Below the pieces are notes generated by a model. The model was not told where the DNA came from, did not search any database, and saw only the letters and a list, made by a program, of their open reading frames with translations. From the NCBI RefSeq assembly GCF_041435015.1, contig NZ_CP107989.1, forward strand, positions 5,704,001-5,768,000: a DNA stretch of 64,000 nt. The letters run 5' to 3'. Below are positions 10,326 through 55,539 of this stretch, in pieces. Position numbers and translations under genes: made by a program. Origin of the DNA: Streptomyces canus (GTDB lineage Bacteria > Actinomycetota > Actinomycetes > Streptomycetales > Streptomycetaceae). How positions within the stretch are numbered: the first letter of the stretch is position 1; each line of letters opens with the position of its first letter.

Positions 10326-10340
10326 CTGACGGGTAGTCAG
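10326..10340. promoter_or_regulatory. Operator A, CTGAC-N5-GTCAG
   Basis: The sequence CTGACGGGTAGTCAG is an exact match to the 15-bp palindrome. It is 18 bp upstream of the ligase start at 10307 and identical to operator H2 at 46824. Confidence 0.85.
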
Positions 10341-10416
10341 ATCGTGGGCAGAGCGTAGGGCGGGACGCCTTGTCGGTCCAGGGGTGCGGGACTTAGCCTT
10401 CCGGTGCGAGCGGTAT

Positions 10417-10431
10417 CTGACGGGTTATCAG
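10417..10431. promoter_or_regulatory. Operator B (one mismatch)
   Basis: The sequence CTGACGGGTTATCAG sits in a longer palindrome with perfect 7-bp arms TATCTGA/TCAGATA (10414-10420 and 10428-10434). It ends 15 bp before ATG 10447, with GGAG at 10436-10439 between. Confidence 0.82.
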
Positions 10432-10446
10432 ATATGGAGTGCCGTC

Positions 10447-11580
10447 ATGGATCTCGCGTACACGCCGGAAGAGGAGGAGTTCCGGGCGCGGCTGCGGGAG
10501 TGGCTCGCCAAGGCGCTCCCCACGCTGCCGCCGAAGCCGTCCCCGCAGGACTGGCCCGGGCGCAGGACCTACGACCTCGGCTGGCAGCGCATGCTGTACG
10601 ACGCCGGGTACGCGCACGTGCACTGGGACGCGTCGCCCACCACGCGGCTGATCTTCCTGGAGGAGACGGCGGCCGCGGGCGCGCCCTATGTGGGCGCCGG
10701 GTTCGTCGGACTGCTCCACGCGGGACCGACGATCGCCGCCGAGGGCACCGCCGAGCAGCGGGAACGCTGGCTGACGCCGATCCTGCGGGGCGAGGAGGTC
10801 TGGTGCCAGGGGTTCAGCGAACCGGACGCCGGGAGCGACCTCGCGGCGCTGCGCACGCGCGCGTGTAGGGACGGCGACGACTATGTGGTGACCGGGTCCA
10901 AGATCTGGACCTCGCACGCCGAAGTGGCCGACTGGTGCGAGCTGCTGGTGCGGACGGATCCGGCGGCTCCGAAGCACCGGGGCATCACCTGGCTCGCGAT
11001 GCCCATGTCCTCGCCCGGTGTCGAGGTGCGCCCCTTGCGCACGCTCGCCGGGTCCGCCGAGTTCGCCGAGGTGTTCCTCGACGAGGTGCGGGTGCCGGTG
11101 GCGAACCGGGTGGGCGAGGAGAACGACGGCTGGCGCGTGACCATGGTGACGCTGTCCTTCGAGCGCGGAACGGCCTTCGTGGGCGAGGTCGTCGCCTGTC
11201 GGCGGGTGCTGGGCGAACTCGCCCGTACGGCACGGGAGAACGGGCGCTGGGACGATCCCGTGCTGAGGCGGCGGCTGGGGCGGCTGAACGCCGAGTTCCG
11301 TGCGCTGTGGCGGCTGACGCAGTGGAACGTGAGCGAGGCCGAGGCGAGTGGCGGGGTGCCGGGGGTGGGAGGTTCGGTTTTCAAGCTCCGCTACTCGCAC
11401 GCCCGCCAGGAGTTGTACGACGCCGCCGCGGACGTACTGGGGCCGGACGGTCTGGATCTCGACCGGCCCTGGGTGCTCGACCGGTTGTCCTCGCTGTCGT
11501 ACACGATCGCGGCCGGGACCTCGCAGATTCAGCGGAACATCGTGGCCGAGCGGATTCTCGGGCTGCCGAAGGGGCGTTGA
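10447..11580 (+). CDS. Acyl-CoA dehydrogenase, large-type subunit of a probable heteromeric pair
   Basis: This 377-residue FAD enzyme starts at ATG 10447 with GGAG at 10436. Family signatures are FSEPDAGSDLAALRTRA (middle domain), GSKIWTSHAEVADWCELLVRT, and the C-terminal FAD/substrate segment GTSQIQRNIVAERILGL. It should introduce a 2,3-double bond into an acyl-CoA. The next gene, one base downstream, encodes a second, shorter-type dehydrogenase. This arrangement is known for the alpha2beta2 steroid side-chain dehydrogenases of mycobacteria (ChsE1-ChsE2, FadE28-FadE29), so a heteromer is a reasonable inference. The gene lies directly behind operator B. Confidence 0.92.
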   Translation: MDLAYTPEEEEFRARLREWLAKALPTLPPKPSPQDWPGRRTYDLGWQRMLYDAGYAHVHWDASPTTRLIFLEETAAAGAPYVGAGFVGLLHAGPTIAAEGTAEQRERWLTPILRGEEVWCQGFSEPDAGSDLAALRTRACRDGDDYVVTGSKIWTSHAEVADWCELLVRTDPAAPKHRGITWLAMPMSSPGVEVRPLRTLAGSAEFAEVFLDEVRVPVANRVGEENDGWRVTMVTLSFERGTAFVGEVVACRRVLGELARTARENGRWDDPVLRRRLGRLNAEFRALWRLTQWNVSEAEASGGVPGVGGSVFKLRYSHARQELYDAAADVLGPDGLDLDRPWVLDRLSSLSYTIAAGTSQIQRNIVAERILGLPKGR

Positions 11581-11581
11581 C

Positions 11582-12970
11582 GTGCGCTTTCAACTGACCG
11601 AGGACCAGAAGGCGTTGCGTGGCGGAATGCGGGAGCTGCTCGCGCGGCGCTTCGACGGGGCCGCGCTGCGGGCCGCCGCGGAGGAACCCCGTCTGGACCG
11701 GGCGCTGTGGCGGGAGTTGGGTGCGGCGGGGTTCTTCGCGCTGCGGGTGCCGGAGGCGGACGGCGGGGTCGGGCTGGGGTTGCCGGAAGCCGTGCTGGTC
11801 TTCGAGGAGGCCGGGCGGGCCCTGCTGCCGGGGCCGCTGGTGGCCACCCACCTCGCGGCGGGCACGGTGCCGGGGGCGGCTACCGGCGAGGCGGTGGTGA
11901 CGGACGTCGACAGCGGCGGGCTGGTCGAGTGGCTGTCCGAGGCGGACGTCGTGCGCGGAGACGCCACGGCGGCCGTATCGCTGCGGTCCGTGGACCCGCT
12001 GACGCCGCTGCACCGGATTCCCGGAGCGGGGGGCGGGCCGGGTCGGGCCGGGCCCGCGTGCGATCCGGGGACGGGGGCGGGGCAGGAATCCTCTGTGCGG
12101 CTTCCGGAGACGGGGGTGGGGCAGGAATCCTCCGAGCGGCTCTCTGCGACGGGCCCGTCGCCGACGCCCGGGTCGTCCTCGGCTGCCGCGCCCGGTTCGT
12201 CTTCTCTCACCGCCCTCGATTCGCGTTCCGCGGCTGCGCCTGGTTCGTCCTCCGTCGAGGGTGCTGGTTCGTCGTCGGCGGCCGTTGGTGGTTCGTCGGC
12301 GGCTGCCGTGTCCGGCTCGGCTTTCGTCGGCGCCCCCGGTTCGCGTTCCGCGACTGCGGCTGGTTCGTCTTCCGGCGAGGCTGCTGGTTCTCCTTCCGCG
12401 GCCGCCGCCGGCCGGTCCTCCGAGACCGCCCCCGGCCGGTACTCCGCGGCTGCCCAGGGCCGGTCCTCCACGACCGCCTCCGGCCGGTTCTCCACCACTG
12501 ACCCCGCGCGCGGCCCCTCGCCGTCGGGTCTCCCTGTGTCCCGATCCCTCCACGTCTCCGACCCCGTTGCCGTACTCCTGACCGCCGCCGAGCAGCTCGG
12601 TACCGCCACGCGCGTGTGTGAGCTCGCTGTGCAACACGCCGGGGCGCGGGAGCAGTTCGGGCAGCCGATCGGGGCCTTTCAGGCGGTCAAGCACCTGTGT
12701 GCGCAGATGCTGGTGCGGGCCGAGACCGCCCGGGCCGCGGTGTACGCGGCCGCCGTGACCGCCGACCCGGTGGACGTCGCCGCGGCCCGGCTGCTGGCCG
12801 ACGACGCGGCCGAGCGGGGTGCCAGGGACTGTCTCCAGGTGCACGGCGGGATGGGCTTCACCTGGGAGTGCGAGGTGCAGCTGCATCTGAAGCGGGCCTG
12901 GGTGCGGGCCCGGAGGGCCGGCGGCGGTGCGGAGAGTGAGGAGTTGCTCGCCGTCGATCTGTTGGCCTGA
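11582..12970 (+). CDS. Acyl-CoA dehydrogenase partner with large Ser/Ala-rich insertion
   Basis: The start is GTG 11582, one base after the stop of the upstream dehydrogenase, giving 462 residues. Members of this short subfamily are typically about 300-350. Residues 1-149 form the N-terminal helical domain (FQLTEDQKALRGGMRELL). Residues about 325-462 form the C-terminal helical domain with AREQFGQPIGAFQAVKH and LQVHGGMGFTWECE. Between them, roughly residues 150-324 are low-complexity, made of degenerate PGSSSAAA / AGSSSxxA units replacing a short linker. The flanking domains are intact, so the protein may still fold as the partner subunit. The insert is probably disordered. Confidence 0.85.
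   Translation: MRFQLTEDQKALRGGMRELLARRFDGAALRAAAEEPRLDRALWRELGAAGFFALRVPEADGGVGLGLPEAVLVFEEAGRALLPGPLVATHLAAGTVPGAATGEAVVTDVDSGGLVEWLSEADVVRGDATAAVSLRSVDPLTPLHRIPGAGGGPGRAGPACDPGTGAGQESSVRLPETGVGQESSERLSATGPSPTPGSSSAAAPGSSSLTALDSRSAAAPGSSSVEGAGSSSAAVGGSSAAAVSGSAFVGAPGSRSATAAGSSSGEAAGSPSAAAAGRSSETAPGRYSAAAQGRSSTTASGRFSTTDPARGPSPSGLPVSRSLHVSDPVAVLLTAAEQLGTATRVCELAVQHAGAREQFGQPIGAFQAVKHLCAQMLVRAETARAAVYAAAVTADPVDVAAARLLADDAAERGARDCLQVHGGMGFTWECEVQLHLKRAWVRARRAGGGAESEELLAVDLLA
12034..12549 (+). repeat. Degenerate Ser/Ala/Gly-coding repeat tract
   Basis: This in-frame tract of about 515 bp inside the dehydrogenase consists of imperfect short units containing GGTTCGTC or GGCCGGTC cores. It encodes PGSSS/AGSSS and later PGRYS/SGRFS motifs. 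It appears to be a locally expanded sequence, because the codons on either side resume normal family sequence. Confidence 0.8.
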
Positions 12971-14257: not shown

Positions 14258-15184
14258 TCACAGAACGGCCACCGGGGCCACCGGCGTTCCGGTGCCGCCG
14301 GCGAACGGCTCGGGCATCGCCGACAGCAGGAACGCGTACCGGCCAAGTTGTCCACAGGCTGTGGACAACTCTTCCAGGTTCCAGTTCTGGCCCTGCAGCA
14401 TCCCCATCTCCACCAGGTCCAGGGCGTGCACCGGCAACCACAGGTCCTCGATCTCGGGCGGAAAGATCTCGAACGTGAGTGTGTCGTTGGCGACCGCCGC
14501 GACATCGCGCGCGTGGAACCACTCCGGGGTGCGGACCGACAGGCCCGGCGACGGATAGGCGTACGCCTCCTTGTCCCCGGCGAGATACACCTGGATCTGT
14601 CCGGTCCGTACGAGCACGATGTCACCGGCACGCACGCGCGTGCCCGCGAGTTCCTCGGCGGCCTCCAGGTCCTCGGGGGTCACGGCGTGGCCACCGTCGA
14701 GCCGGTCCACGCCCCGCGCGCGGGCCACGTCGAGCAGTACCCCGCGCGAGACCACGTGCCGCGCCTTGTCGATACCGCTGAACTCGGCGCCGCCGTGCGG
14801 GGTGATGGTGCCGGCCGGGCGTCCGTTGTAGAGCATGCCGGAGTGCGAGACATGGGTGAGCGCGTCCCAGTGGGTGGCGGCCTGCAGGCCCATGGTCACC
14901 GCGTCGTCGCTGCAGGCGACCGTTCCCGGTCCGAAGATCTCCTGGTTGATCTGCACCATCACGTGCAGGGGGTTGACCCGGCCCGGCATCATCCCGGTCT
15001 GCACGCCGTCCTGCCTGAGGGGCAGGGCGAGAGGGATGCGACGACCCGTGCGGACGGTCGCGGCGGCCTCGCGAACGACCTCGTCGGTGATCAGGTTCAG
15101 GGTGCCGATCTCGTCGTCGGCGCCCCAACGACCCCAGTTGTTCACGCGCTTGGCGATGTCGTGGAACGCGGCCGGAAGTGACAT
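14258..15184 (-). CDS. Cyclase family protein (kynurenine formamidase-like fold)
   Basis: This 308-residue protein starts at ATG 15184. It belongs to the metal-dependent cyclase/hydrolase family typified by bacterial kynurenine formamidase and putative polyketide cyclases. The metal motif is HWDALTHVSH (variant of HxxTHxDxPxH), with a downstream GDIVLVRTG strand. The N-terminal part reads NNWGRWGADDEIGTLNLIT, typical of a subgroup that is often found in degradation clusters. Reactions in this family are lactone or amide hydrolysis. It is divergent from an SDR operon, and a weak operator half (C1) lies 31 bp upstream. Confidence 0.85.
   Translation of the reverse strand: MSLPAAFHDIAKRVNNWGRWGADDEIGTLNLITDEVVREAAATVRTGRRIPLALPLRQDGVQTGMMPGRVNPLHVMVQINQEIFGPGTVACSDDAVTMGLQAATHWDALTHVSHSGMLYNGRPAGTITPHGGAEFSGIDKARHVVSRGVLLDVARARGVDRLDGGHAVTPEDLEAAEELAGTRVRAGDIVLVRTGQIQVYLAGDKEAYAYPSPGLSVRTPEWFHARDVAAVANDTLTFEIFPPEIEDLWLPVHALDLVEMGMLQGQNWNLEELSTACGQLGRYAFLLSAMPEPFAGGTGTPVAPVAVL
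14348..14368. other. Inverted pair of perfect DnaA-box sequences inside the cyclase gene
   Basis: TTGTCCACA (14348-14356) and its inverse TGTGGACAA (14360-14368) are separated by three bases. TTGTCCACA is the preferred Streptomyces DnaA box. The sequence codes for part of ELSTACGQL, so it may be fortuitous. No replication gene or box cluster is nearby. Confidence 0.6.
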
Positions 15185-15215
15185 CGGGCCCTCCCCGGGG
15201 CTTGTGTCCGCACAT

Positions 15216-15247
15216 CTGACAGGTCATAAAATCTAACGGTCCGTCAG
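15216..15247. promoter_or_regulatory. Operator C in the divergent cyclase/SDR promoter region
   Basis: The C2 copy is CTAACGGTCCGTCAG (15233-15247, one mismatch), ending 22 bp before ATG 15270. A weaker partial copy, CTGACAGGTCATAAA, starts at 15216, 31 bp from the cyclase start. Confidence 0.7.
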
Positions 15248-15269
15248 AAACCGCGGGAAGGGGCCGGGC

Positions 15270-16136
15270 ATGGGGAACTTCTTGGCAGGCAGGGTCGTCG
15301 CCGTGACCGGCGCGGGGCGGGGGATCGGGCGGGCGGTCGCGCTGGCCGCGGCGGGGGAGGGGGCGCGCGTCGTCGTCAACGACTACGGCGTCTCCGTGGA
15401 CGGGGCGTCCCCTGCGAGCGATGTCGCCTCGAGTGTGGTGAAGGAGATCGAGGCGGCCGGGGGTGAGGCCGTCGCCGTGGCCGACGACATCTCGACGATG
15501 GCGGGTGGGCAGCGCGTCGTCGATGTCGCGTTGTCCTCCTATGGGCGGCTCGACGGTGTCGTCTGCGTCGCCGGGATCCTGCGTGAGCGGATGCTGTTCA
15601 ACATGACCGAGGAGGAGTGGGATCCGGTCCTCGCCACGCATTTGAAGGGGACGTTCACGGTGTTCCGGGCGGCCTCCGCGGTGATGCGGAAGCAGCGGGC
15701 GGGGACCCTGATCGGGTTCACCAGCGGGAATCACCAGGGGTCGGTTTCGCAGGCGAATTACAGCGCGGCGAAGGGCGGGATCATCTCGCTGGTCCGTAGT
15801 GCGGCGCTCGGGTTGCACAAATATGGGGTGACCGCGAACGCGGTGGCGCCTGTCGCCCGTACGCGGATGTCGGCGAACGTGCCGTTCGAGCTGACGGAGA
15901 TCGGGGAGCCGGAGGACGTGGCCGCCATGGTGGTCTACCTGCTGTCGGCGCGGGCCCAGGAGATCACCGGGCAGGTGTACACCGTGGCGGGGCCGAAGAT
16001 CGCGGTGTGGGCTCAGCCTCGGGAGTTGCGCGCCGCGTATGCCTCCGGCGGGTGGACGCCGGAAACGATCGCGGAGTTTTTGCCGGGGAGCGTGGGAGTG
16101 GATCCGATGCCGTTGCTTTCTGGGCCGAATGCCTAG
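15270..16136 (+). CDS. Short-chain dehydrogenase/reductase (multifunctional-enzyme type)
   Basis: This 288-residue NAD(P)-dependent oxidoreductase starts at ATG 15270 with GGAAGG upstream. The cofactor motif TGAGRGIG is at about 14-21, DD at the adenine pocket is VADDIS, and the catalytic YxxxK is in NYSAAKGG. The pattern VVNDYGVS after the second strand is typical of the 3-hydroxyacyl-CoA dehydrogenases related to peroxisomal MFE-2. It therefore probably oxidises a 3-hydroxyacyl-CoA or a ring hydroxyl. It is the first gene of the operon that continues with an acyl-CoA dehydrogenase and an alcohol dehydrogenase. Confidence 0.9.
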   Translation: MGNFLAGRVVAVTGAGRGIGRAVALAAAGEGARVVVNDYGVSVDGASPASDVASSVVKEIEAAGGEAVAVADDISTMAGGQRVVDVALSSYGRLDGVVCVAGILRERMLFNMTEEEWDPVLATHLKGTFTVFRAASAVMRKQRAGTLIGFTSGNHQGSVSQANYSAAKGGIISLVRSAALGLHKYGVTANAVAPVARTRMSANVPFELTEIGEPEDVAAMVVYLLSARAQEITGQVYTVAGPKIAVWAQPRELRAAYASGGWTPETIAEFLPGSVGVDPMPLLSGPNA

Positions 16137-16151
16137 TGGCTCGGGGGTGCT

Positions 16152-16232
16152 CCTTGTGGGGCGGCTGCGGGTTGTCTGTGGCTTGTCGCGCCCGCGCGGC
16201 GGAGCCGCAAATCGATGCAGCCCCGCGCCCCT
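16152..16232. repeat. Diverged copy of the dispersed Streptomyces intergenic element
   Basis: It shares CTTGTGGGGCGGCTGCGGGT and the GCCCCGCGCCCCT end with the element at 4994-5128. The middle carries GCGCGGCGGAGCCGC instead of the second arm. It lies between the SDR and the next dehydrogenase. Confidence 0.6.
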
Positions 16233-16268
16233 GGTTCTCAACTCGTCCAGTACTGAGAGGAGACGTTC

Positions 16269-17420
16269 GTGGACTTTGGGTTCAGTGCTGACGACGAGGC
16301 GTTTCGCAGCGAGGCACGGGAATGGCTGTCCAGCCACGTGGACGGGGCCCAGGACCGCCGTACCTGGGAACGTACCCTCGGTAAGTCCGGGTGGATCGGG
16401 ATCGGCTGGGAGGAATCCGGGTACGGCAACCGGACCGCCACCCTCACCCAGCAGGTCGTCTGGGCCGAGGAGTACGCGGGGTCGGGGGCGCCGGCGCGGT
16501 CCGGGCACATCGGGGAGAAGTTGCTGGCTCCCACTCTCCTGGCGCACGGGACCGACGAGCAGAAGGCGCGCTTTCTTCCTCCCGTCGCCGCCGGGGAGGA
16601 GCTGTGGTGCCAGGGGTACAGCGAACCCGGGGCGGGGTCCGACCTCGCGGGGGTGCGGACCAGGGCCACGCGGGTCGAGGACGGGACGTATCGGATCAGC
16701 GGGCAGAAGATCTGGACGTCCCTCGCTCATGAGGCGGACTGGTGTTTCGTCCTCGCACGGACCGATCCGGACTCCCGCCGGCATCACGGGCTGTCGTTCC
16801 TCCTCGTTCCCATGGACCAGCCGGGGCGCATCGAGGTGCGGCCCATTCGGCAGATGACCGGGACCAGTGAGTTCAACGAGGTCTTCTTCGACGGGGCACA
16901 CGCGCGTGCGGAGCATGTCGTGGGGGGTGAGGGGCACGGCTGGCAGGTGGCGATGAGTCTGTTGGGGTTCGAGCGCGGAGTGTCCACGCTGGCCCAACAG
17001 GTCGGGTTCGCCGAGGAGTTGACGCGGGTGGTGCAGACCGCCGTACGGACTGGCGCTGCTTCCGATCCGGTCGTGCGGGCGCTGCTCGTGCGGCAGTGGG
17101 CCGAGCTGCGGACCATGCGGTGGAACGCCCTGCGGACGCTGGGGGGCTCGGGGGACGCCGGGGCCTCCAGCGTGGCCAAGCTGCTGTGGGCGGGGTGGCA
17201 TCAACGGCTCGGGGAACTGGCGATGCTCGTGCGGGGGGCGGAGGCGACGGTCGGGCCCGGAGACTGGTCCCCTTCCTCACCGTACGAACTCGACGCCCTG
17301 CAGCACCTGTTCCTGTTCTCGCGGGCCGACACCATCTACGGCGGCTCGGACCAGATCCAGCGCACCATCATCGCCGAGCGGGTGCTCGGTCTGCCCAGGG
17401 AACCCAAGGGGGTCGTCTGA
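16269..17420 (+). CDS. Acyl-CoA dehydrogenase
   Basis: This 383-residue protein starts at GTG 16269 after GAGAGGAG. Family motifs are present in order: GYSEPGAGSDLAGVRTRA, SGQKIWTSLAHEADWCFVLART, MTGTSEFNEVFFD, and the C-terminal GGSDQIQRTIIAERVLGL. It should dehydrogenate an acyl-CoA with FAD as cofactor and electron-transfer flavoprotein as acceptor. Its last base is shared with the start of the alcohol dehydrogenase gene, so the two are translationally coupled. It lies 132 bp after the SDR and is probably under operator C. Confidence 0.92.
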   Translation: MDFGFSADDEAFRSEAREWLSSHVDGAQDRRTWERTLGKSGWIGIGWEESGYGNRTATLTQQVVWAEEYAGSGAPARSGHIGEKLLAPTLLAHGTDEQKARFLPPVAAGEELWCQGYSEPGAGSDLAGVRTRATRVEDGTYRISGQKIWTSLAHEADWCFVLARTDPDSRRHHGLSFLLVPMDQPGRIEVRPIRQMTGTSEFNEVFFDGAHARAEHVVGGEGHGWQVAMSLLGFERGVSTLAQQVGFAEELTRVVQTAVRTGAASDPVVRALLVRQWAELRTMRWNALRTLGGSGDAGASSVAKLLWAGWHQRLGELAMLVRGAEATVGPGDWSPSSPYELDALQHLFLFSRADTIYGGSDQIQRTIIAERVLGLPREPKGVV

Positions 17421-18469
17421 TGCGCGGCGTGCTGTTCGACGGGAGGCAGATCCAGGTCGTCGACGATCTGGAGGTGCGGGATCCGGGACCCGGGGAGGTG
17501 CAGGTCGCGATCTCGGCGGCCGGGCTGTGCCACAGCGACCTGTCCGTGGTGGACGGAACGATTCCGTTCCCGGTCCCGGTGGTGCTGGGGCATGAGGGCG
17601 CGGGCGTGGTGGAGGCGGTGGGGGACGGGGTCACCCATGTCGGGCCCGGGGACCATGTGGCGCTGTCCACGCTCGCCAACTGCGGTGCCTGCGCCGACTG
17701 CGACCGGGGGCGGCCGACCATGTGCCGCAAAGCCATCGGGCGGCCCCAAAAACCCTTCTCGCGGGGCGGGGAGCGGGTGTTCCAGTTCGCGTGCAACTCC
17801 GCCTTCGCGGAACGGACGGTGGTGAAGGCCGTCCAGGCGGTCCGGATCCCGAAGGACATTCCCCTGCCGTCCGCCGCGCTCATCGGGTGCGGGGTGCTGA
17901 CCGGGGTGGGGGCCGTGCTCAACCGGGCCCGGGTGGACCGGGGGGAGAGCGTGCTGGTCATCGGGACCGGGGGGATCGGGCTCAACGTCATCCAGGGCGC
18001 GCGGATCGCGGGGGCGTCGCGGATCGTGGCGGTGGACGCCAATCCGGCGAAGGAGGCGATGGCCCGGCAGTTCGGGGCGACCGACTTCCTGACGGCGGCG
18101 GAGGGAGTACGGGACCTGCTGCCGCACGGCGTGGACCACGCCTTCGAGTGCGTCGGCCGGGTCGAACTCGTGCGCGCCGCCGTGGACTTGCTGGACCGGC
18201 ACGGCCAGGCGGTCCTGCTGGGGGTCCCGGCGGCGGGTGCGGAGGCGTCCTTCGTCGTCTCGTCGATGTTCCTCGACAAGTCCATCCTCGGCTGCCGCTA
18301 CGGTTCGTCGCGGCCGCAGCGGGACATCCCGCTGTACGCCGAGCTCTACCGGGAGGGACGGCTGTTCCTCGACGAGCTGGTCACGGAGACCTATCCCATC
18401 GAGGACTTCGAGAAGGCGGTGGGGGACGCGGAGGCGGGGCGGGTGGCTCGGGGCGTGCTCACGTTCTAG
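17420..18469 (+). CDS. Zinc-dependent alcohol dehydrogenase (class III-like)
   Basis: This 349-residue medium-chain dehydrogenase starts at ATG 17420 in a TGATG overlap with the upstream gene. The catalytic-zinc ligands sit in CHSD (about 38-41) and GHEGAG. The structural-zinc cysteines are in the cluster CGACADCDRGRPTMC. The NAD-binding motif is GTGGIGLNVIQGA. It resembles the actinobacterial NDMA/NAD-dependent alcohol dehydrogenases of the Rv0162c type. It probably oxidises an alcohol intermediate to an aldehyde or ketone in the same pathway as the upstream genes. Confidence 0.93.
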   Translation: MRGVLFDGRQIQVVDDLEVRDPGPGEVQVAISAAGLCHSDLSVVDGTIPFPVPVVLGHEGAGVVEAVGDGVTHVGPGDHVALSTLANCGACADCDRGRPTMCRKAIGRPQKPFSRGGERVFQFACNSAFAERTVVKAVQAVRIPKDIPLPSAALIGCGVLTGVGAVLNRARVDRGESVLVIGTGGIGLNVIQGARIAGASRIVAVDANPAKEAMARQFGATDFLTAAEGVRDLLPHGVDHAFECVGRVELVRAAVDLLDRHGQAVLLGVPAAGAEASFVVSSMFLDKSILGCRYGSSRPQRDIPLYAELYREGRLFLDELVTETYPIEDFEKAVGDAEAGRVARGVLTF

Positions 18470-22743: not shown

Positions 22744-22759
22744 CACACCCCCATTGAAG

Positions 22760-22774
22760 CTGACGGATCGTCAG
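22760..22774. promoter_or_regulatory. Operator D, exact
   Basis: The sequence CTGACGGATCGTCAG has 6-bp perfect arms (CTGACG/CGTCAG) and is 16 bp upstream of the flavin reductase ATG at 22743. Confidence 0.85.
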
Positions 22775-22803
22775 ATAGGAAGGGGGTTGTCCCCGTCTGA
22801 CCG

Positions 22804-25846: not shown

Positions 25847-25885
25847 CTGACGCAGTGTCAGATTACAGAACTGACGAGGTGTCAG
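25847..25885. promoter_or_regulatory. Operators E1 and E2, tandem exact copies
   Basis: CTGACGCAGTGTCAG (25847-25861) and CTGACGAGGTGTCAG (25871-25885) lie 24 bp centre to centre, a little over two helical turns. The nearer one is 35 bp from the start at 25811. A shorter palindrome, CTGTC-GT-GACAG (25826-25837), lies still closer to the start. Confidence 0.85.
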
Positions 25886-39510: not shown

Positions 39511-39518
39511 GCCGTCAG
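39504..39518. promoter_or_regulatory. Possible autoregulatory operator over the TetR start codon
   Basis: CTGTCATGCCGTCAG matches the 15-bp palindrome with one mismatch in the left arm. It spans bases 39508-39510, the TetR ATG on the minus strand. Confidence 0.45.
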
Positions 39519-44397: not shown

Positions 44398-44433
44398 GGG
44401 GCGAGCATACGCCTGTATAGGACACCGACATTG

Positions 44434-45207: not shown

Positions 45208-45611
45208 GACAGCACCCACTGGGGAAGCCCGTCGGCGAACACCACGTGCACCCGGGCGCCGATCCGGATCCGGCCCGGATCGAGGGAGTTCAGCGGCGCC
45301 CCGGCCACGGTGACCAGGTTCCCGACCAGCCGTATCCGGGGGGCCTCCTCCAGTTCGACGACGACCACGTTGTACGGCGCCTGCGCCGCGTAGTCGGGCA
45401 GGAGGGGCGGGTGGGGGACGACGTAGGACCAGACGCGGCCGCGCCCGGAGACCGGCCGCCACTCCTCGGCGAACGACTGGCAGTGCGGGCAGCAGGGCCG
45501 GGGCGGAAAGCGGAGTTCCCCGCAGTCGGCGCAGGCCTGGACGCGCAGTTCGCCCCGGGCGGCGTACTCCCAGAAGGGGGCGCCCGTGGTGTCCTTCACC
45601 GGTTCGAGCAT
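45204..45611 (-). CDS. DUF35 Zn-ribbon/OB-fold protein
   Basis: This 135-residue protein starts at ATG 45611, one base after the thiolase-fold gene. Zinc ribbon cysteines are Cys27, Cys30, Cys41 and Cys44, followed by an OB-fold (GRGRVWSYVVPHPP). It is encoded directly between the thiolase-fold protein and a hydratase, the arrangement used by ChsH2-Ltp2 aldolase systems. A complex with the upstream gene product is therefore likely. Confidence 0.9.
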   Translation of the reverse strand: MLEPVKDTTGAPFWEYAARGELRVQACADCGELRFPPRPCCPHCQSFAEEWRPVSGRGRVWSYVVPHPPLLPDYAAQAPYNVVVVELEEAPRIRLVGNLVTVAGAPLNSLDPGRIRIGARVHVVFADGLPQWVLS

Positions 45612-45612
45612 G

Positions 45613-46764: not shown

Positions 46765-46796
46765 GCTCCACGCACCTCCGCACACTGTGAGGCCTG

Positions 46797-46811
46797 CTGA
46801 CAGCCCGTCAG
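46797..46811. promoter_or_regulatory. Operator H1, exact
   Basis: The sequence CTGACAGCCCGTCAG lies 32 bp upstream of the thiolase-fold gene start at 46764. Confidence 0.82.
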
Positions 46812-46823
46812 GCTACAGCTAAT

Positions 46824-46838
46824 CTGACGGGTAGTCAG
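46824..46838. promoter_or_regulatory. Operator H2, exact
   Basis: The sequence CTGACGGGTAGTCAG is identical to operator A. It lies 31 bp upstream of the ligase start at 46870, and its centre is 27 bp from that of H1, giving one operator for each divergent gene. Confidence 0.87.
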
Positions 46839-46869: not shown

Positions 46870-48420
46870 GTGGAGTGGCGGAGCATCCCGGAGCTGGTCG
46901 CCCGGGCCGCGGAGCGGTACGGCGCCGCGGAGGCGGTCGTGGAGGGCCGGAACCGGGTCACGTACGGCGAGTTGGGCGCCCGCGTGGAGCGGGCGGCGGC
47001 CGCCTGCATCGCGAACGGCGTGCGGCCGGGCGACCGGGTGGCCGTCTGGGCCCCCAACTCCCTGGACTGGATGGTCTCGGCGCTGGGCGCGGTGTCGGCG
47101 GGCGCGGTCCTGGTGCCCCTCAACACCCGCTTCAAGGGCGCCGAGGCGGCGGATGTGCTGCGCCGCAGCGGGACCCGGCTGCTGTTCGTGACCGGCACCT
47201 TCCTGGGGACGTCGTACGTGGCGTCCCTGCGCCGCGCCGTCGCGGAGGGGCCGGCGCTGCCGGAGCTGGAGCAGGTGGTGGTGCTGTCGGACGACGCCCC
47301 GGCGGACTTCCGTACCTGGAAGGACTTCCTGGCGAGCGGGGACGGGGTCGGTCGGGCCGAGGTACGGGCGAGGGCCGCGGCGGTCGAGGGGTCCTGGCCG
47401 TCGGACATCGTCTTCACCTCCGGGACCACCGGCCGCCCCAAGGGCGCGGTGATCACCCACGAGCAGACCTTGCGGGCCTACGACGTCTGGTGCGAACTGG
47501 CCGGGCTGCGGCAGGGCGACCGCTACCTGATCGTGAACCCCTTCTTCCACACCTTCGGTTACAAGGCCGGGGTGATCGCCTGTCTGATGCGCGGGGCGAC
47601 GATGATCCCGCAGCCGGTGTTCAGCGTGGACACCGTGCTGGCGAACATCGCGGCGGAACGGATCTCGGTGCTGCCGGGCCCGCCGACCCTCCACCAGTCG
47701 CTCCTCGACCATCCGGCGCGCGATTCCCACGACCTGTCCGCGCTGCGCCTGGTGGTGACGGGCGCGGCGGTGGTGCCGCTCAGGCTGGTCGAGCAACTGC
47801 ACGGCGAGCTGGGCGTGGAGACGGTCCTGACCGCGTACGGCCTCTCGGAGGCGAGCGGCATCGTGACGATGTGCCGGCGCGGCGACCCGCTGCCGGTGAT
47901 CGCGTCGACCTCCGGACGGGCCATCCCCGGGACGGAGGTACGGGTCGAGGCGCCGGCCGGCGAGCCCGGCGAGGTCCTCGTCCGCGGCTTCAACGTGATG
48001 CGCGGCTACTACGAGGACGAGGCGGCCACCGCGGAGGCCGTGACGGAGGACGGCTGGCTGCGCACCGGTGACATCGGCGTCCTGGACGAGGCGGGCAACC
48101 TGCGGATCACCGACCGGCTGAAGGACATGTTCATCGTGGGCGGCTTCAACGCCTACCCGGCGGAGATAGAGCAACTCCTCGGGCTGCACCCGGCGGTGGC
48201 CGACGTGGCGGTCGTCGGTGTGCCGGACGCACGGCTCGGCGAGGTCGGCAGGGCGTACGTGGTCCGCCGCCCGGGCGCGGTCCTCACCGCCCACGACCTC
48301 ATCGCCTGGGCCCGCCGGGAGATGGCGAACTACAAGGTGCCGAGGTCGGTGGAGTTCGTGGCGGAGCTGCCGCGGAACGCGAGCGGGAAGGTGGTGAAGG
48401 GGGAGCTGCGCCGGTCCTGA
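46870..48420 (+). CDS. AMP-forming acyl-CoA ligase (FadD-like)
   Basis: This 516-residue ANL-superfamily enzyme starts at GTG 46870 after GGGGAGG. The ATP loop FTSGTTGRPKG is at 182-192, the motif YGLSEASG is near residue 317, the hinge is WLRTGDIG ... ITDRLKDMFIVGGFN, and the catalytic lysine lies in PRNASGKVVKGEL at the C-terminus. It resembles FadD3- and FadD17-like ligases used for cyclic or side-chain acids (weak inference). It is the second CoA ligase under the shared operator. Confidence 0.93.
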   Translation: MEWRSIPELVARAAERYGAAEAVVEGRNRVTYGELGARVERAAAACIANGVRPGDRVAVWAPNSLDWMVSALGAVSAGAVLVPLNTRFKGAEAADVLRRSGTRLLFVTGTFLGTSYVASLRRAVAEGPALPELEQVVVLSDDAPADFRTWKDFLASGDGVGRAEVRARAAAVEGSWPSDIVFTSGTTGRPKGAVITHEQTLRAYDVWCELAGLRQGDRYLIVNPFFHTFGYKAGVIACLMRGATMIPQPVFSVDTVLANIAAERISVLPGPPTLHQSLLDHPARDSHDLSALRLVVTGAAVVPLRLVEQLHGELGVETVLTAYGLSEASGIVTMCRRGDPLPVIASTSGRAIPGTEVRVEAPAGEPGEVLVRGFNVMRGYYEDEAATAEAVTEDGWLRTGDIGVLDEAGNLRITDRLKDMFIVGGFNAYPAEIEQLLGLHPAVADVAVVGVPDARLGEVGRAYVVRRPGAVLTAHDLIAWARREMANYKVPRSVEFVAELPRNASGKVVKGELRRS

Positions 48421-48891: not shown

Positions 48892-51800
48892 CTAGACGGT
48901 GGCCGACGGGGCGAGCAGGAGCCGTACGTCGGCCGCCTCCGGCGAGCCCAGCTGCTCGTAGATGCCGAGCGCCTCCTGCCAGCACGCCTCCGCCCGGCCG
49001 GGCTGTCCGAGCCCGCTGAGGGCGCGGCCGAGCACGGTCAGGACGTTGCCGCGCCGCCACTCGCCGCCGATGCCCCGCAGTACGGCCAGGGCCTGCTCGG
49101 TCAGGGCGGCGGCCTGCGTGGGCCGGTGGCCGACGAGGTGCGCCTCGGCGAGCCGGAAGAGCGTCATGCCCTCCCACAGCCGCTGCCGGCTGTCGCGGAA
49201 GACCTCGAGCGCCTCGGTCAGCCGGTCCACCGCGGCGTCCAGCCGACCCTGCCCGGTGAGGGCCAGGCCCAGCGCGTACCGGCCGTTCGCGCCGCGCAGC
49301 GTGTGCCCCAGCCGGTCGTAGATGACGATGCCCTGCTGGGCGAGTTCCACGGCGCTGGTGCTCTGCCCCATGGCCAGGTGGATGCGGGAGAGGTTGCACA
49401 GCGCGCTGGCCTCGCCCGCGAGGTTCCGGTCGTGCCGGAAGCTCTCGATGGCCTCCTTCAGGTACGCCTCGCCCTCGGGGTGACGCCCTTGGTAGAGCGC
49501 GATGATGCCGCGGTCGTTGGCGGCCCAGCAACGGGGCGCCAGGTCGTCCGCCGCGCGGGCGAGGTCCATGGCCAGCCGGGCCTCGGCATCGGCCTGCTCG
49601 AAGCGGCCGGCGACGAGATGGACGTTGGTCAGCGTGGTGAGCGCACGCGCACGGCTGCGCGGGTCGTCCGTCGCGTCGGCCGCGTCCCGCAGGGCGACGG
49701 CGGCGACCTCGTACTGCTTCGAGTTGGCCCCCGACTCGGCCAGGTCCTTCGCCACCCACAGCAGATCCACCGCGCGTCGCAGCAGAGCCCCCTTCGCGCA
49801 CTGCTGGACGAAGGCGAGCAGGGCGTTGGCCTCCGCGTACAGCCAGTCCTGGGCGGTGTGGCGGTCCTCGAAGGACAGGCCGGGGTAGCGGATCTCCTCC
49901 AGGTGCTCCACCAGCCGGTCGCCGGGACGCTCGATGGCGTACACGGCCGCCGCGGTCGCGAGATAGAAGTCCAGCAGCCGGGACAGCGCCGCCTCCCGCT
50001 CGCTCGGCGGCCACTCGTCGCGCTCGGCGCACGCACGCGCGTAGAGCCGTACGAGATCGTGGAACCGGTAGCGGCCGGGCGCCGCCGATTCCAGCAGTGA
50101 GGTGTCGACCAGGGCCTCCAGGAGGTCCTCGGTGTCCTCCACGGGGAGATCCAGCACCGCGCCGGCCGCCGCCAGCGACATGTCCGGACCGTCGGCGAGG
50201 CCCAGCAGGCGGAAGGCGCGGGCCTGGGCGGGCTCCAGCTGGCCGTAGCCGAGTTCGAAGGTGGCCTTCACCGCGAGGTCGCCGGCCTGGAGTTCGTCGA
50301 GGCGGCGGCGTTCGTCGGCGAGCTTCGCCGCGAGGACGGAGACCGTCCAGGTGCGGCGGGCCGCCAGGCGGGAGGCGGCGATGCGGATGGCGAGGGGAAG
50401 GAATCCGCAGGCGGCGACCACGTCGAGGGCGGCCTTGCGCTCGGAGGCGACCCGTTCCTCGCCGACGATCTTGGTGAACAGCTGGAGGGCCTCGTCGGGG
50501 GACATCACGTCCAGGTCGACCAGGTGGGCTCCGGCGAGGTCGACCATGCGGACCCGGGAGGTCACCAGGGCCGCGCAGCCTTCCGTGCCCGGCAGCAGGG
50601 GCCGTATCTGGGCCGCGTCGCGCGCGTTGTCGAGCAGGACGAGGACCCGGCGGCCGTCGAGGACCGAGCGGTACAGGGCGGACCGCTCCTGAAGGGAGTC
50701 CGGGATCGCGGAGTCGGGGGTGCCGAGGGCTCTGAGGAAGGCGCCCAGGACCGTCTCCGGCTCGGCCGCCCGGGAGCCCGCGCCCTGGAGGTCGACGTAG
50801 AGCTGCCCGTCGGGGAAGACCGCGCGGCACTGGTGGGCCACGTGCACCGCGAGGGTCGTCTTGCCGACGCCGCCGATGCCGGCCAGCGCGGAGACCGCCA
50901 TCACGTGGCCCTCGGAGCCGGAGGCGAGCACCTGGCTCAGTTCGGTGACGAAGGACGCGCGGCCCGTGAAGTCCGGGACCGTGGCCGGGAGTTGTGCGGG
51001 CCGGACGGGGGCGGCGACCGGTTCGGGCTCCGGGGAGGAGGGGGCCGCGAGGCCGGGGTCGGCCTGGAGGATGCGCTGCTGGAGTTCGCGCAGGCCGGGG
51101 CGGGGGTCGACGCCGAGTTCGTCGGCGAGCAGGCGGCGGGTGTCGGCGTAGACCGCGAGGGCCTCCGCCTGGCGGCCGGAGCGGTACAGGGCCAGCATGA
51201 GCAGCTCACGCAGGCGCTCGCGCAGGGGGTGCTCGGCGGTGAGGGCGGTGAGTTCGGAGACCGCCCCCGCGTGGCAGCCCTGCTCCAGGTCCATGTCGAG
51301 GCGCGTTTCGAGGAGTTGCAGCCGCCACTCCTGAAGGCGTACGCGCTGTGCCTCGGCGTACGGCCCCGGCACTCCCGCGAGCACCTCGCCGTCCCACAGG
51401 GCCAGCGCCCGGGTGAGCGCCTCCCGCGCATGGCACAGGTCCCCGGTGCTGCGGGCCTTCTCCGCCTCGGTGGCCAGCTCCTGGGCGGCGGCCAGGTCGA
51501 GCGCGTCCTCGCCGAGCCCGCGGATCGCGTACCCGCCGGACTCGCTGACCAGGATCCCGGGGTCGAGGATCTTGCGGAGCCGGGAGGCGTACGTGCGCAC
51601 GGCGGCCAGGGCCTGGGAGGGCGGTTCCTCGCCCCACAGGGCGTCGATCAGCTCGGCGGCGGTCGCCGTACGGCCCTCGCGCAGCAACAGGGCGGCGAGC
51701 AGGGCCCGTTGCTGGGGCGAGCCGGTGTTCAACAACTCCTCACCACGCCGGGCCCGCACCGGCCCGAGCACGCTGAACCGCAACGACGGCAGGGGCGCCG

Positions 51801-52326: not shown

Positions 52327-52498
52327 CGCCGTCCCCCTAGGGCCTGTTGACAACCCGGTCAGTCTGCCTTGTCCACGGCAGATGCGTCAGCTGTGGAGAG
52401 GCTGATCACAGATGGGCGCGCGGTATATCACAAGGCCCTCACTCTCTCTCCGCACACTTCCGCACAGGAACCGTCGGCATCGGTCGCCGCCCACCCAG

Positions 52499-52513
52499 CT
52501 GACGGACCGTCAG
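52499..52513. promoter_or_regulatory. Operator I, exact
   Basis: The sequence CTGACGGACCGTCAG lies 21 bp before ATG 52535 (12 bp before GTG 52526). It sits in the divergent region with afsR, 172 bp from the afsR start. Confidence 0.85.
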
Positions 52514-52534
52514 ATCGGCGCTACCGTGAGCGCC

Positions 52535-53767
52535 ATGGAGACCACGACGGCACTTCCGAAGATCATCTCCGTCGACGACCACACGGTGGAGCCCTCCGAC
52601 GTCTGGCAGAACCGGCTCCCGAAGAAGTACCTCGACACCGGCCCCCGCGTCGTCCGCGCCCCGCTGAAGGAGATCAGCTTCCTGGGCGGCCGCTTCAAGC
52701 CCGTGATGGGCGCCCCCGGGGACGACGGACCCCTGGGCGACTGGTGGCTGTACGAGGGACTCCAGCGCCCCCTCACCCGCCTCGACACGGCGGTCGGCTA
52801 CAGCAGGGACGAGATCAAGCTGGAGGTCATCACGTACGAACAGATGCGCCCCGGCTCCTACGACGTCCCCCAGCGCCTCGCCGACATGGACGTCAACCAC
52901 GTCCAGTCGGCCGTCTGCTTCCCGACCTTCCCGCGCTTCTGCGGCCAGACCTTCACCGAGGCCAAGGACCACGAACTGGGTCTGCTCTGCGTCCAGGCCT
53001 ACAACGACTGGATGGTGGAGGAGTGGTGCGGCCCCGACGCGCAGGGCCGGCTCATACCGCTCACCCTCATCCCGCTGTGGGACGCCGAACTGGCGGCCGC
53101 GGAGGTACGCCGCAACGCCGCCCGCGGGGTCCGCGCCGTCGCCTTCTCCGAGATACCCCCGCACCTCGGCCTGCCCTCCGTCCACTCCGACGACTGGGAC
53201 CCCTTCCTCGCTGCCTGCGACGAGACCGGCACGGTCATCTCGATGCACATCGGCTCCAGCAGCCGTATGCCCTCCACCTCCGCCGACGCCCCGCCCGCCG
53301 TCGGCTCCACGATCACCTTCGCCAACTGCTGCTTCTCGATGGTCGACTGGCTGATGAGCGGCAAGTTCGAGCGCTTCCCGAACCTCAAGGTCATGTACGC
53401 GGAAGGCCAGATCGGCTGGATCCCCTACATCCTGGAGCGCGCCGACGTGGTCTGGGAGGAGAACCGCGGCTGGGGCGGCGTCGCCGACAAGGTCCACCGC
53501 CCGCCGTCCGAGCTCTTCACCGAGCACGTCTACGGCTGCTTCTTCGACGACGCGTTCGGCCTGAAGAACCTGGATGCGATCGGCGTGGGGAACGTGCTGT
53601 ACGAGACCGACTACCCCCACTCCGACTCCACGTGGCCGAAGTCCCGCGAGGTCGGCGAGGCGCAGATGGGACACCTGGACGCCGAGGTGGTGGAGCGGAT
53701 CGTGCGGGGCAACGCCATCGACCTGCTCGGTCTCACCCCGGACGGCCTCTGGGGCGGCCCGAAGTGA
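52535..53767 (+). CDS. Amidohydrolase-family (amidohydrolase_2) metalloenzyme
   Basis: This 410-residue protein starts at ATG 52535; GTG 52526 (VSAMETTT) is an alternative. The metal-binding pattern of decarboxylase/hydrolase members is present: ISVDDHTVEPSDVW at the N-terminus, MHIGSSS in the middle and ETDYPHSDSTWP near the end. The sequence most resembles an actinobacterial subgroup related to amino-carboxymuconate-semialdehyde decarboxylase, often found in degradation clusters; the exact reaction is unknown. It is the first gene of an operon, with its stop overlapping the LLM gene start (TGATG). Confidence 0.88.
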   Translation: METTTALPKIISVDDHTVEPSDVWQNRLPKKYLDTGPRVVRAPLKEISFLGGRFKPVMGAPGDDGPLGDWWLYEGLQRPLTRLDTAVGYSRDEIKLEVITYEQMRPGSYDVPQRLADMDVNHVQSAVCFPTFPRFCGQTFTEAKDHELGLLCVQAYNDWMVEEWCGPDAQGRLIPLTLIPLWDAELAAAEVRRNAARGVRAVAFSEIPPHLGLPSVHSDDWDPFLAACDETGTVISMHIGSSSRMPSTSADAPPAVGSTITFANCCFSMVDWLMSGKFERFPNLKVMYAEGQIGWIPYILERADVVWEENRGWGGVADKVHRPPSELFTEHVYGCFFDDAFGLKNLDAIGVGNVLYETDYPHSDSTWPKSREVGEAQMGHLDAEVVERIVRGNAIDLLGLTPDGLWGGPK

Positions 53768-54681
53768 TGGAGTACGGCATCCAGCTCCCCGTCCAGTCCC
53801 AGAGCACCCTCTACGCCGAGCCCTGGGAGGCCGGCGCCGGGCCGGAGGATCTCGCCGAGGTGGCCGGGGCCGCCGACCGCGCCGGGTTCGCGTACATCGC
53901 GGCCTGCGACCACGTGGCCGTCCCCCGCCGCCTCGCCCCCGCGATGAGCACGGTCTGGTACGACCCGGTCGCCACCCTCGCCTTCCTGGCGGGCGTGACC
54001 GAACGGGTGCGGCTGCTGAGTCATGTGGCGGTGGTCGGGCTGCGGCACCCCCTGCTCACCGCCAAGCAGTACGCCACCCTCGACCATCTGAGCGGCGGGC
54101 GGCTGATCCTCGGGGTCGGTGCGGGACATGTGCAGGAGGAGTTCGAGGCGCTCGGGGTCGACTTCGCGGGGCGCGGGGCCGTTCTCGACGAGTCGATCGA
54201 CGCGCTGCGAAAGGCCCTGGGGCCCGAGGAGTTCCCCGAACACCACGGCAAGCTTTACGACTTCGAGGGCCTCGGGCAGCGTCCGCGGCCCACGCAGTCC
54301 CGCGTACCGGTGTGGGTCGGCGGGTCCTCTCCGGCCGCCGTGCGCCGGGCCGCGCTCAAGGGTGACGGGTGGCTGCCCCAGGGGGACCCCCGGGACCGGC
54401 TGCCCGCACAGATCGATCGGATACGGCGGCTGCGGGCGGAGGCGGGCGTCGAAGGGCCGTTCAGCGTCGGGGCCATCGCCGAGCCGCTCCACGTCGGCAC
54501 GCCCACGTGGGACGTCGGCCGCCGGACGCTCAGTGGCCCGCCCGACGAACTCGCCGAGTCCCTGCGTGCCTACCGCGCGATGGGCGTGGACCAGATCCAG
54601 GTGCGCTTCCGCAGCCGCGAACGGGCCGAACTCATCGACCAGATCTCGGCGTTCGGCGCCGACATCGCCCCCCACCTCTGA
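53767..54681 (+). CDS. LLM-class (F420-dependent) oxidoreductase
   Basis: This 304-residue TIM-barrel protein starts at ATG 53767 in a TGATG overlap. Luciferase-like monooxygenase markers are GFAYIAACDHVAVPRR, then YDPVATLAFLAGVTERVRLLSHV, GGRLILGVGAGHVQEEFEALG and WVGGSSPAAVRRAALKGDGWLP. The actinobacterial subgroup usually binds F420 rather than FMN. It may oxidise or reduce a carbonyl/alcohol intermediate produced in the same operon. Confidence 0.9.
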   Translation: MEYGIQLPVQSQSTLYAEPWEAGAGPEDLAEVAGAADRAGFAYIAACDHVAVPRRLAPAMSTVWYDPVATLAFLAGVTERVRLLSHVAVVGLRHPLLTAKQYATLDHLSGGRLILGVGAGHVQEEFEALGVDFAGRGAVLDESIDALRKALGPEEFPEHHGKLYDFEGLGQRPRPTQSRVPVWVGGSSPAAVRRAALKGDGWLPQGDPRDRLPAQIDRIRRLRAEAGVEGPFSVGAIAEPLHVGTPTWDVGRRTLSGPPDELAESLRAYRAMGVDQIQVRFRSRERAELIDQISAFGADIAPHL

Positions 54682-54692
54682 GGAGTCACCGC

Positions 54693-55463
54693 ATGGGCAA
54701 GCTGGACGGACGTGTCGTCCTCGTCACCGGCGCGGCGCGCGGGCAGGGCGAGCAGGAGGCCCGGCTGTTCCGGGAGGAGGGCGCCGAGGTCGTCGTGGGC
54801 GATGTGCTGGACGAGCAGGGGAAGGCGCTGGCCGAGGAGATCGGGGCGCTGTACGTCCACCTGGATGTCAGTCAGGAGTCCGACTGGCAGCGGGCGGCAC
54901 GGGCCGTCGTCGAGGAGTACGGCCGGGTCGACGGGCTCGTCAACAACGCCGGCATCCTGCGCTTCAACACCCTCCTGGACACGCCTCTCGCGGAGTTCAT
55001 GCAGGTGTTGCAGGTCAACCAGGTCGGCTGCTTCCTCGGCATCAGGACCGTGGCGCCGGTCCTGTCCGACGGCGGCACGATCGTCAACACCGCCTCCTAC
55101 ACCGGGGTGACCGGGATGGCGGGGGTGGGCGCCTACGCCGCCTCCAAGCACGCGATCCTCGGGCTCACCCGGGTCGCCGCGCTGGAGCTGGCACCGCGCG
55201 GTATCCGGGTCAACGCCATGTGCCCGGGAGCCGTGGACACCGAGATGTCCAACCCGGCGGTCCTGGACCCCTCGGCGGACGGCGAGGAGGCCTCCCGGGG
55301 GCTGGACCGGTTCTACCGCAAGGTCGTTCCGCTGGGCCGGATCGGGCGGCCGGAGGAGGTGGCGGCGCTCGCGCTCTTCCTGACCTCCGCCGACTCCTCG
55401 TACATCACCGGCCAGCCGTTCGTGATCGACGGCGGGTGGCTCGCCGGGGTCTCGGTCATCTGA
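54693..55463 (+). CDS. Short-chain dehydrogenase/reductase
   Basis: This 256-residue protein starts at ATG 54693 with AGGAG eight bases upstream. Cofactor motif TGAARGQG (about 12-19), NNAG in VNNAGILRF, and catalytic Ser/Tyr/Lys with YAASK in GAYAASKHA. The C-terminal PFVIDGGWLAG is typical. It resembles 3-alpha/20-beta-hydroxysteroid-type SDRs. It is the third gene of the operator I unit, 11 bases after the LLM gene. A one-mismatch operator (J1) overlaps its stop. Confidence 0.92.
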   Translation: MGKLDGRVVLVTGAARGQGEQEARLFREEGAEVVVGDVLDEQGKALAEEIGALYVHLDVSQESDWQRAARAVVEEYGRVDGLVNNAGILRFNTLLDTPLAEFMQVLQVNQVGCFLGIRTVAPVLSDGGTIVNTASYTGVTGMAGVGAYAASKHAILGLTRVAALELAPRGIRVNAMCPGAVDTEMSNPAVLDPSADGEEASRGLDRFYRKVVPLGRIGRPEEVAALALFLTSADSSYITGQPFVIDGGWLAGVSVI

Positions 55464-55474
55464 CCACCCATCAG
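55460..55474. promoter_or_regulatory. Operator J1 (one mismatch) overlapping the SDR stop
   Basis: CTGACCACCCATCAG ends 50 bp before operator J2 begins. It could be an auxiliary site for the next operon. Confidence 0.55.
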
Positions 55475-55524
55475 CTATTGACGCTGTTGGCGCCCGGTGC
55501 CACAGTCGGCGGCAGATCAGGAAT

Positions 55525-55539
55525 CTGACGGAGCGTCAG
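55525..55539. promoter_or_regulatory. Operator J2, exact
   Basis: CTGACGGAGCGTCAG lies 25 bp upstream of the TTG start at 55565. Confidence 0.85.

Follow-up and report, generated by a model that had tools for sequence, protein, structure and literature searches.

A conserved palindrome as the probable operator of a TetR-family regulator of catabolic genes in Streptomyces canus

A 15-bp palindrome, CTGAC-N5-GTCAG, recurs before catabolic genes in a 64,000-bp stretch of the Streptomyces canus genome (contig NZ_CP107989.1, positions 5,704,001 to 5,768,000; hereafter the window, with coordinates counted from its first base). Which protein reads this sequence, and which genes would be controlled through it? 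An earlier note on this DNA proposed one shared regulator for a catabolic regulon of many operons and named a TetR protein as the likely candidate, and the comparative evidence lends the first proposal good support. Because the sites are conserved, the regulator and the sites are paired across genomes, and the target genes belong to recurring families, a shared TetR operator is supported. Very likely, the TetR-family protein encoded at 38863-39510 has this palindrome as its operator. This little-studied protein would repress the catabolic units, a widely conserved gene set for the degradation of lipid-like compounds, as well as its own gene, until an intermediate of the pathway releases it; its binding and repression, the ligand and the substrate are our inferences.

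All nine exact copies of the core reported in the earlier note were recovered in the window. Dinucleotide-preserving shuffles gave a mean of 0.14 copies and a maximum of 1, and none of 100 reached nine; the previous chance estimate of 0.05 exact copies was of the right order. When up to one mismatch was allowed, the window held 14 copies (shuffle mean 2.96, largest 8). The four imperfect copies already noted were present at their reported positions, but the total is five, because CTGTCATGCCGTCAG at 39504-39518, which overlaps the ATG of the TetR gene, had been overlooked. None of the 14 copies lies wholly within a predicted gene. The close spacing to gene starts was likewise borne out, with the centres of the nine exact sites 13-67 bp from starts that are themselves predictions; five of the nine separate divergent gene pairs, and no convergent pair has an exact site between its members. 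Judged by coordinates, no copy stands directly before the afsK-like, MFS or GNAT genes, as previously described. We also agree that the copy at 55460 is auxiliary, because it straddles the end of a short-chain dehydrogenase/reductase (SDR) gene at 55463.

The rest of the genome was scanned by pattern searches that allowed mismatches, with the reversed pattern as control; genes were called by our codon-usage predictor, trained on this window. Across 10.68 Mb, 60 exact cores were found compared with 4 for the reversed pattern. The expectation that the palindrome would keep to the upstream regions of catabolic genes held only in part: this excess stood, but among the 51 exact cores outside the window, 16 were in predicted genes, 7 of the other 35 had a gene stop codon in an arm, and some preceded unrelated genes. 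For these reasons the bare core is a mixture. For the cores outside the window, 28 targets were tabulated and 20 proteins were scanned with Pfam. The seven cores on stop codons (L005, L013, L014, L024, L045, L046 and L051) form a minor second class in Streptomyces.

An alignment of 68 sites from six Streptomyces genomes extended the motif, with A at -2 (0.79), T at -1 (0.56), G at core position 6 (0.74), and the mirror positions. The functional site is predicted to be an operator of ~21 bp, about AATCTGACG-N3-CGTCAGATT, with A/T flanks and a G-N3-C centre, so that much of what matches only the bare 15 bp in other parts of the genome probably does not act as an operator. With up to three mismatches, this extended pattern occurred 20 times in the genome and its reversed control not at all, which makes it far more specific than the bare core; 8 of the 20 sites were in the window. 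Among the 12 others, six stand shortly before genes for a luciferase-like monooxygenase (LLM), an ABC transporter, a glyoxalase-type protein, an amidohydrolase-2-like protein, a 279-aa protein that has no Pfam match and whose gene diverges from an SDR-like one, and a nitronate monooxygenase together with a FadD-like protein. Cores with a weaker extension were also seen before OB-fold, lipid-transfer protein (Ltp) and FadD genes (5303263), a GMC oxidoreductase gene (7428450), and FadD, enoyl-CoA hydratase (ECH), OB-fold and thiolase genes (9332072).

The candidate regulator matches TetR_N (4.9e-06; 26.7 bits, cut-off 24) and TetR_C_38 (2.4e-72) in Pfam, and its confidently predicted structure is nearly all-helical with the EthR fold. 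It has both the N-terminal helix-turn-helix domain and the all-helical ligand domain of the TetR family. Identity with the nucleoid-occlusion factor SlmA was rejected (NCBIfam equivalog 31.8 bits, cut-off 120). In an alignment of 13 orthologues from six families, 12 share the helix-turn-helix stretch GTSPATFYQYF unchanged, and the remaining one departs from it at a single residue. In all 30 loci of a first set, the palindrome, as CTGACGGC-ATG-ACAG or a near variant, overlaps the tetR start. Among 79 named tetR loci, mostly from Streptomyces, 75 had a palindrome with at most one mismatch among the 160 positions tested (73 at -17 to -26 and 2 at -150; 4 had none), compared with 46 of 1580 random windows of equal size, although relatedness among the loci and the coding role of half the site mean that these are not independent tests. 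A further 21 genomes (28 loci, some of them one place counted twice) had a site within 60 bp of tetR in 14 cases, including 12 of the 19 outside the genus of the window; beyond Streptomyces the own-gene palindrome is less well conserved.

This TetR is probably the orthologue of SCO4421; SAV3818 may, as a guess, be the S. avermitilis orthologue. The TetR gene, a glyoxalase-domain gene and a Ser/Thr kinase gene with PQQ repeats adjoin one another in the window and in five other Streptomyces genomes (G011, G007, G033, G107 and G013); for the latter two we assume the names kbpA and afsK, in part after the earlier note. According to PMC3878966, SCO4421 is close to afsK (SCO4423), its expression depends on whiA, and a reporter signal was seen in spore chains. 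Among the open-access papers listed by our searches we found no operator or targets for SCO4421 and no report of this regulon, and subscription papers or database entries could hold one. Sco4385, the subject of PMC12093943, is a different locus tag.

The number of sites per genome follows the presence of the TetR. It was found in 51 of 61 relatives, including all 37 searched genomes of the genus, and core counts were 9-95 in these 51 and 2-8 in the 10 without it. In a class-wide draw of 148 genomes, 26 matched the TetR at E 1e-40 or better and had 5-473 cores; the remaining genomes had up to 15, except three of family f15 with 248-296 cores and a weaker homologue. The ranges overlap, since G062, G072 and G081 have the TetR yet only 5-7 cores. 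We compared extended sites in 45 genomes, 30 with and 15 without the TetR. The 30 include four assigned at weaker E (G063, G085, G119 and G180) and G081, whose homologue has an internal stop. Of the 15, six gave no match at 1e-8, three (G122, G192 and G181) gave only hits of 23-29% identity near 1e-11, and six were judged at 1e-40 only. Extended sites numbered 2-98 in 27 of the 30 genomes with the TetR (2-20 outside f15) and 0-1 in all 15 without it, with 0-2 for the reversed control across the 45; the difference was significant by a Mann-Whitney test that ignores shared ancestry (p = 1e-6). The same direction was seen within f16 (7-18 sites in 7 genomes with the TetR, 0 and 0 in 2 without; p = 0.027) and within f20 (2-8 in 4 genomes with, 0-1 in 6 without; p = 0.006). 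These counts, together with the own-gene site, favour the TetR as the regulator that the earlier note had suspected. As a separate case, G081 (family f6) carries its TetR homologue with an internal TGA stop at C74:75373-75993 and has 4 extended sites (reversed control 1), possibly reflecting a decaying regulator.

Could another protein read these sites, with tetR being just one of its targets? An AraC-type gene (19714-20763) lies inside the cluster, an unlinked factor is conceivable as well, and the site before tetR would look identical in either case. However, no relative of the AraC protein was detected (blastp of window proteins at 1e-8) in the ~20-kb tetR neighbourhoods with sites of one Catenulispora, two Actinomadura and one Embleya genome. 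G010 and G183 possess the AraC gene yet have only 0 and 2 extended sites, though both also keep tetR. Extended-site counts, compared for the TetR only, track it across families. We regard a different regulator as quite improbable.

The arrangement is not confined to this genome, since other Streptomyces share it and other actinomycete families share part of it. The five Streptomyces relatives named above keep the cluster around the same core of tetR, glyoxalase-type and afsK-like genes, and a site was present at every orthologous position inside the stretches fetched, with the spacing of both tandem pairs unchanged or almost so. In these genomes the sites accompany orthologous operons, a co-occurrence that the earlier note had put forward for testing. 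All six genomes showed ten of the positions, four showed 15233, and two showed 10326 and 10417. When the last two were excluded, pairwise identity was 99.1% (1546/1560) in the arms, 68.5% (534/780) in the N5 spacer, 86.8% (812/936) in the 3-bp flanks and 56.5% (2996/5304) farther out. In G010 and G183, with the 0 and 2 extended sites given above, tetR is retained, but the 20 kb read around it are missing most of the catabolic genes. S. griseus NCTC 13033 and S. filamentosus show the Streptomyces arrangement around tetR. In G159 (f16), sites precede amidohydrolase-2 and -3, AcadA/B-like (acyl-CoA dehydrogenase A and B), SDR, FadD-like, ECH, LLM, nitronate monooxygenase and thiolase genes, and similar target types stand behind sites in G086 and G062. 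Such genes with sites also adjoin tetR itself in Actinomadura sp. K4S16 and WMMA1423, Catenulispora rubra and Embleya scabrispora. The tabulated neighbourhoods are eight of the 79 named loci, mostly picked for having sites; 44 of the 79 had neither an exact core nor an extended site inside the retrieved stretch.

Several observations weigh against the assignment of the palindrome to this TetR as a catabolic operator. Some bare cores precede genes without an evident catabolic link (phosphofructokinase, cobO-type, glycosyltransferase, PDZ and NUDIX genes), and the 12 extended sites beyond the window include 3 inside predicted genes and 3 whose target is unclear (8467793, 4348602 and 6734910). 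Since the motif itself served to recognise orthologous sites, the values for footprint conservation are too high. The 3′ half of the own-gene site in Streptomyces also encodes the first residues of the protein, and its conservation may be partly coding. No site came within 60 bp of tetR in seven of the 21 further genomes: G045, G063, G085 and G119 had none in the vicinity, and in G106, G150 and G182 the nearest lies 230-265 bp upstream. G010, G139 and G072 keep the TetR and have 0 extended sites. The 45 genomes were picked by us after the core counts were known, co-occurrence is confounded by shared ancestry, and the within-family contrasts come from f16 and f20 only. Finally, deletion of SCO4421 had no detected phenotype in sporulation assays, as reported in PMC3878966.

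If the TetR acts as proposed, its dimer would bind about AATCTGACG-N3-CGTCAGATT over the promoter or transcription start and would control 13-14 catabolic units in the window (26-27 genes by gene order), its own gene and a handful of distant genes. Repression, which is suggested by TetR membership and by site position, would end when an intermediate of the pathway frees the protein; an acyl-CoA or a comparable hydrophobic molecule is the most plausible candidate. The pathway would activate and then beta-oxidise an alicyclic, perhaps steroid- or terpenoid-like, compound. Some TetR proteins activate, and the tandem and auxiliary sites (25871, 55460) could permit looping or activation. The geometry instead fits repression, with the exact sites close to predicted start codons and one site on that of tetR, and we give little credence to an activating or dual role for this TetR.

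The actinomycete family f15 shows another pattern. Five of its genomes (G063, G085, G103, G119 and G135; loci L138-L152, L153-L159 and L200-L212) have 232-473 cores per 4.3-5.5-Mb genome (reversed control 2-7), counts that should not be read as regulon size because the pattern differs from that of the window operators. The TGA stops of one or two convergent genes often lie within the arms. In 280 kb of G063, 12 of 18 sites were outside predicted genes and 8 had a gene stop codon in an arm, and in 127.5 kb of G135 there were 14 exact sites, several at convergent stops; these site classes are rough, as the gene predictor was Streptomyces-trained. Between G103 and G135 the site upstream of tetR is block-conserved and the other compared sites are not. 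The f15 TetR orthologue keeps the DNA-reading helix and has a shortened, diverged ligand domain. Here a former catabolic repressor may have turned into a factor that acts at gene ends throughout the genome, for insulation, termination or chromosome organisation, a conversion that we consider unlikely. That the palindromes of the window are terminators or gene-end elements, as the TGA stops contained in the CTGAC/GTCAG arms, the 7 of 51 non-window cores on stop codons and the common f15 position might suggest, is scarcely credible, since no exact window site lies between convergent genes, five of nine lie between divergent ones, and all nine are just upstream of a start, most with A/T flanks.

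Systems of this kind are already known, and what is probably newly assigned is this set of regulator, operator and regulon. EthR (PDB 1t56, 3tp3 and others) is 19% identical to the window TetR, and its operator and regulon differ. The FadD3- and IpdE-type targets of KstR2 resemble genes of the window. As with KstR, one palindrome stands before several acyl-CoA-type catabolic operons and is conserved across species. The mycobacterial KstR is, according to PMC1995591, a TetR repressor of lipid-degradation genes with a large scattered regulon, whose 14-bp palindrome occurs in the promoter of its gene and, in two mycobacteria, at 16 and 31 further intergenic positions; its motif, TnnAACnnGTTnnA, is unrelated to CTGACG-N3-CGTCAG, and its targets and taxa are different. 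KstR2 (PMC3068626) is also a TetR repressor with a palindromic motif, but that motif is AnCAAGnnCTTGnT, in three promoter regions. BkaR, as described in PMC3920632, is an autoregulating TetR with paired palindromes and beta-oxidation-type targets, but its motif is GTTA(N)T(N4)A(N)TAAC. None of the three published motifs matches that of the window, and these operators were rejected as its identity.

The candidate sites and their target genes are collected in the table; the five Streptomyces named above serve as the relatives. Among the targets, the lipid-transfer protein exceeds the NCBIfam cut-off for PRK07855 (573 vs 469) and matches the solved chain 6ok1 at 2.3e-100, and similarities to IpdE2 and PimC remain below the NCBIfam cut-offs. 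The amidohydrolase-2 matches the solved chains of DitZ (4.8e-62) and PtmU3 (6.3e-40), which we take to be diterpenoid enzymes. The solved relatives of the acyl-CoA dehydrogenases are 4x28, Tcur3483 and Tcur3481, presumably enzymes of steroid side-chain degradation. The other targets gave only broad matches to solved structures. The diterpenoid hint comes from the similarity to the DitZ and PtmU3 chains and from the presumed roles of those proteins; a look at the DitZ literature for guidance on the substrate gave nothing useful. Because some of the targets resemble steroid side-chain and diterpenoid enzymes, a polycyclic isoprenoid is a plausible substrate of the pathway.

Table. Candidate operators, the proposed regulator and target genes in the window
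Feature	Coordinates	Strand	Context or match	Relatives
Candidate operator, exact core	10326-10340		between FadD-type acyl-CoA ligase (8799-10307 -) and acyl-CoA dehydrogenase A (10447-11580 +)	G011, sole relative whose stretch reached here
Candidate operator, one mismatch	10417-10431		before acyl-CoA dehydrogenase A/B	orthologous site in G011
Candidate operator, one mismatch	15233-15247		between cyclase-family gene (14258-15184 -) and SDR/acyl-CoA dehydrogenase/alcohol dehydrogenase operon (15270-18469 +)	G011, G033, G013, whose stretches covered the position
Candidate operator, exact	22760-22774		before flavin reductase (22150-22746 -)	5/5
Candidate operator, exact, proximal of tandem pair	25847-25861		before ADP-forming acyl-CoA ligase and ECH (22804-25811 -)	pair in 5/5
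Candidate auxiliary operator, exact	25871-25885		24 bp from 25847	pair in 5/5
Candidate operator, exact	30819-30833		before DoxX-like and OB-fold/ChsH2-type genes (30839-31698 +); divergent tannase-B-type gene (29008-30663 -)	5/5
Candidate operator, one mismatch	37037-37051		between thiolase-like gene (35824-36993 -) and acyl-CoA dehydrogenase D with F420H2-dependent quinone reductase-type gene (37075-38789 +)	5/5
Proposed autoregulatory operator, one mismatch	39504-39518		on TetR start codon	30/30 loci; 73/79 named loci
Candidate operator, exact	46797-46811		before lipid-transfer-type thiolase/OB-fold/ECH/hydrolase operon (43429-46764 -)	5/5
Candidate operator, exact	46824-46838		27 bp from 46797, before FadD3-family CoA ligase (46870-48420 +)	5/5
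Candidate operator, exact	52499-52513		before amidohydrolase-2/LLM/SDR operon (52526-55463 +)	5/5
Candidate auxiliary operator, one mismatch	55460-55474		end of SDR gene	5/5, mismatch in some
Candidate operator, exact	55525-55539		before LLM/amidohydrolase-3/aldehyde dehydrogenase operon (55595-59882 +)	5/5
TetR-family regulator, TetR_C_38 domain	38863-39510	-	proposed repressor of all sites; probably SCO4421 orthologue	
AMP-binding acyl-CoA ligase	8799-10307	-	Pfam	
Acyl-CoA dehydrogenase A	10447-11580	+	nearest solved relatives 4x28 and Tcur3483	
Acyl-CoA dehydrogenase B	11348-12970	+	IpdE2 similarity under cut-off; coordinates of open frame, with a later true start	
Cyclase family (-); SDR, acyl-CoA dehydrogenase C, zinc alcohol dehydrogenase (+)	14258-18469	-/+		
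Flavin reductase, ECH, ADP-forming acyl-CoA ligase	22150-25811	-		
DoxX-like and ChsH2-type OB-fold genes	30839-31698	+	DoxX just under Pfam cut-off	
Thiolase-like (-); acyl-CoA dehydrogenase D, F420H2-dependent quinone reductase-type (+)	35824-38789	-/+		
Alpha/beta hydrolase, ECH, OB-fold, lipid-transfer-type thiolase	43429-46785	-		
FadD3-family acyl-CoA ligase	46870-48420	+	NCBIfam 810 bits, cut-off 657	
Amidohydrolase-2, LLM 1, SDR 2, LLM 2, amidohydrolase-3, aldehyde dehydrogenase	52412-59882	+	amidohydrolase-2 DitZ/PtmU3-like	

Two neighbouring genes were noted beside these targets. The gene divergent from the site at 30819 encodes a subtype B tannase (517 bits, cut-off 300) and is not at this place in all relatives. 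A long protein (48892-51771, minus strand; 959 aa predicted), encoded divergently from the amidohydrolase-2 operon, is conserved in this cluster in each of the five relatives. The site at 52499 lies between the two, ~190 bp upstream in G011 and G013, and the long protein is possibly also regulated.

The operator and its regulator form a candidate biosensor part. G010, G183 and G139, Streptomyces that have the TetR and 0, 2 and 0 extended sites, respectively, are natural tests of further TetR targets. An orphan TetR present in all searched genomes of the genus can now be assigned a probable operator and a probable regulon, and an extensive group of uncharacterised catabolic genes becomes testable as one pathway. 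With some targets that resemble steroid side-chain and diterpenoid enzymes, this gene set may represent a widespread actinomycete route for the degradation of polycyclic isoprenoids.

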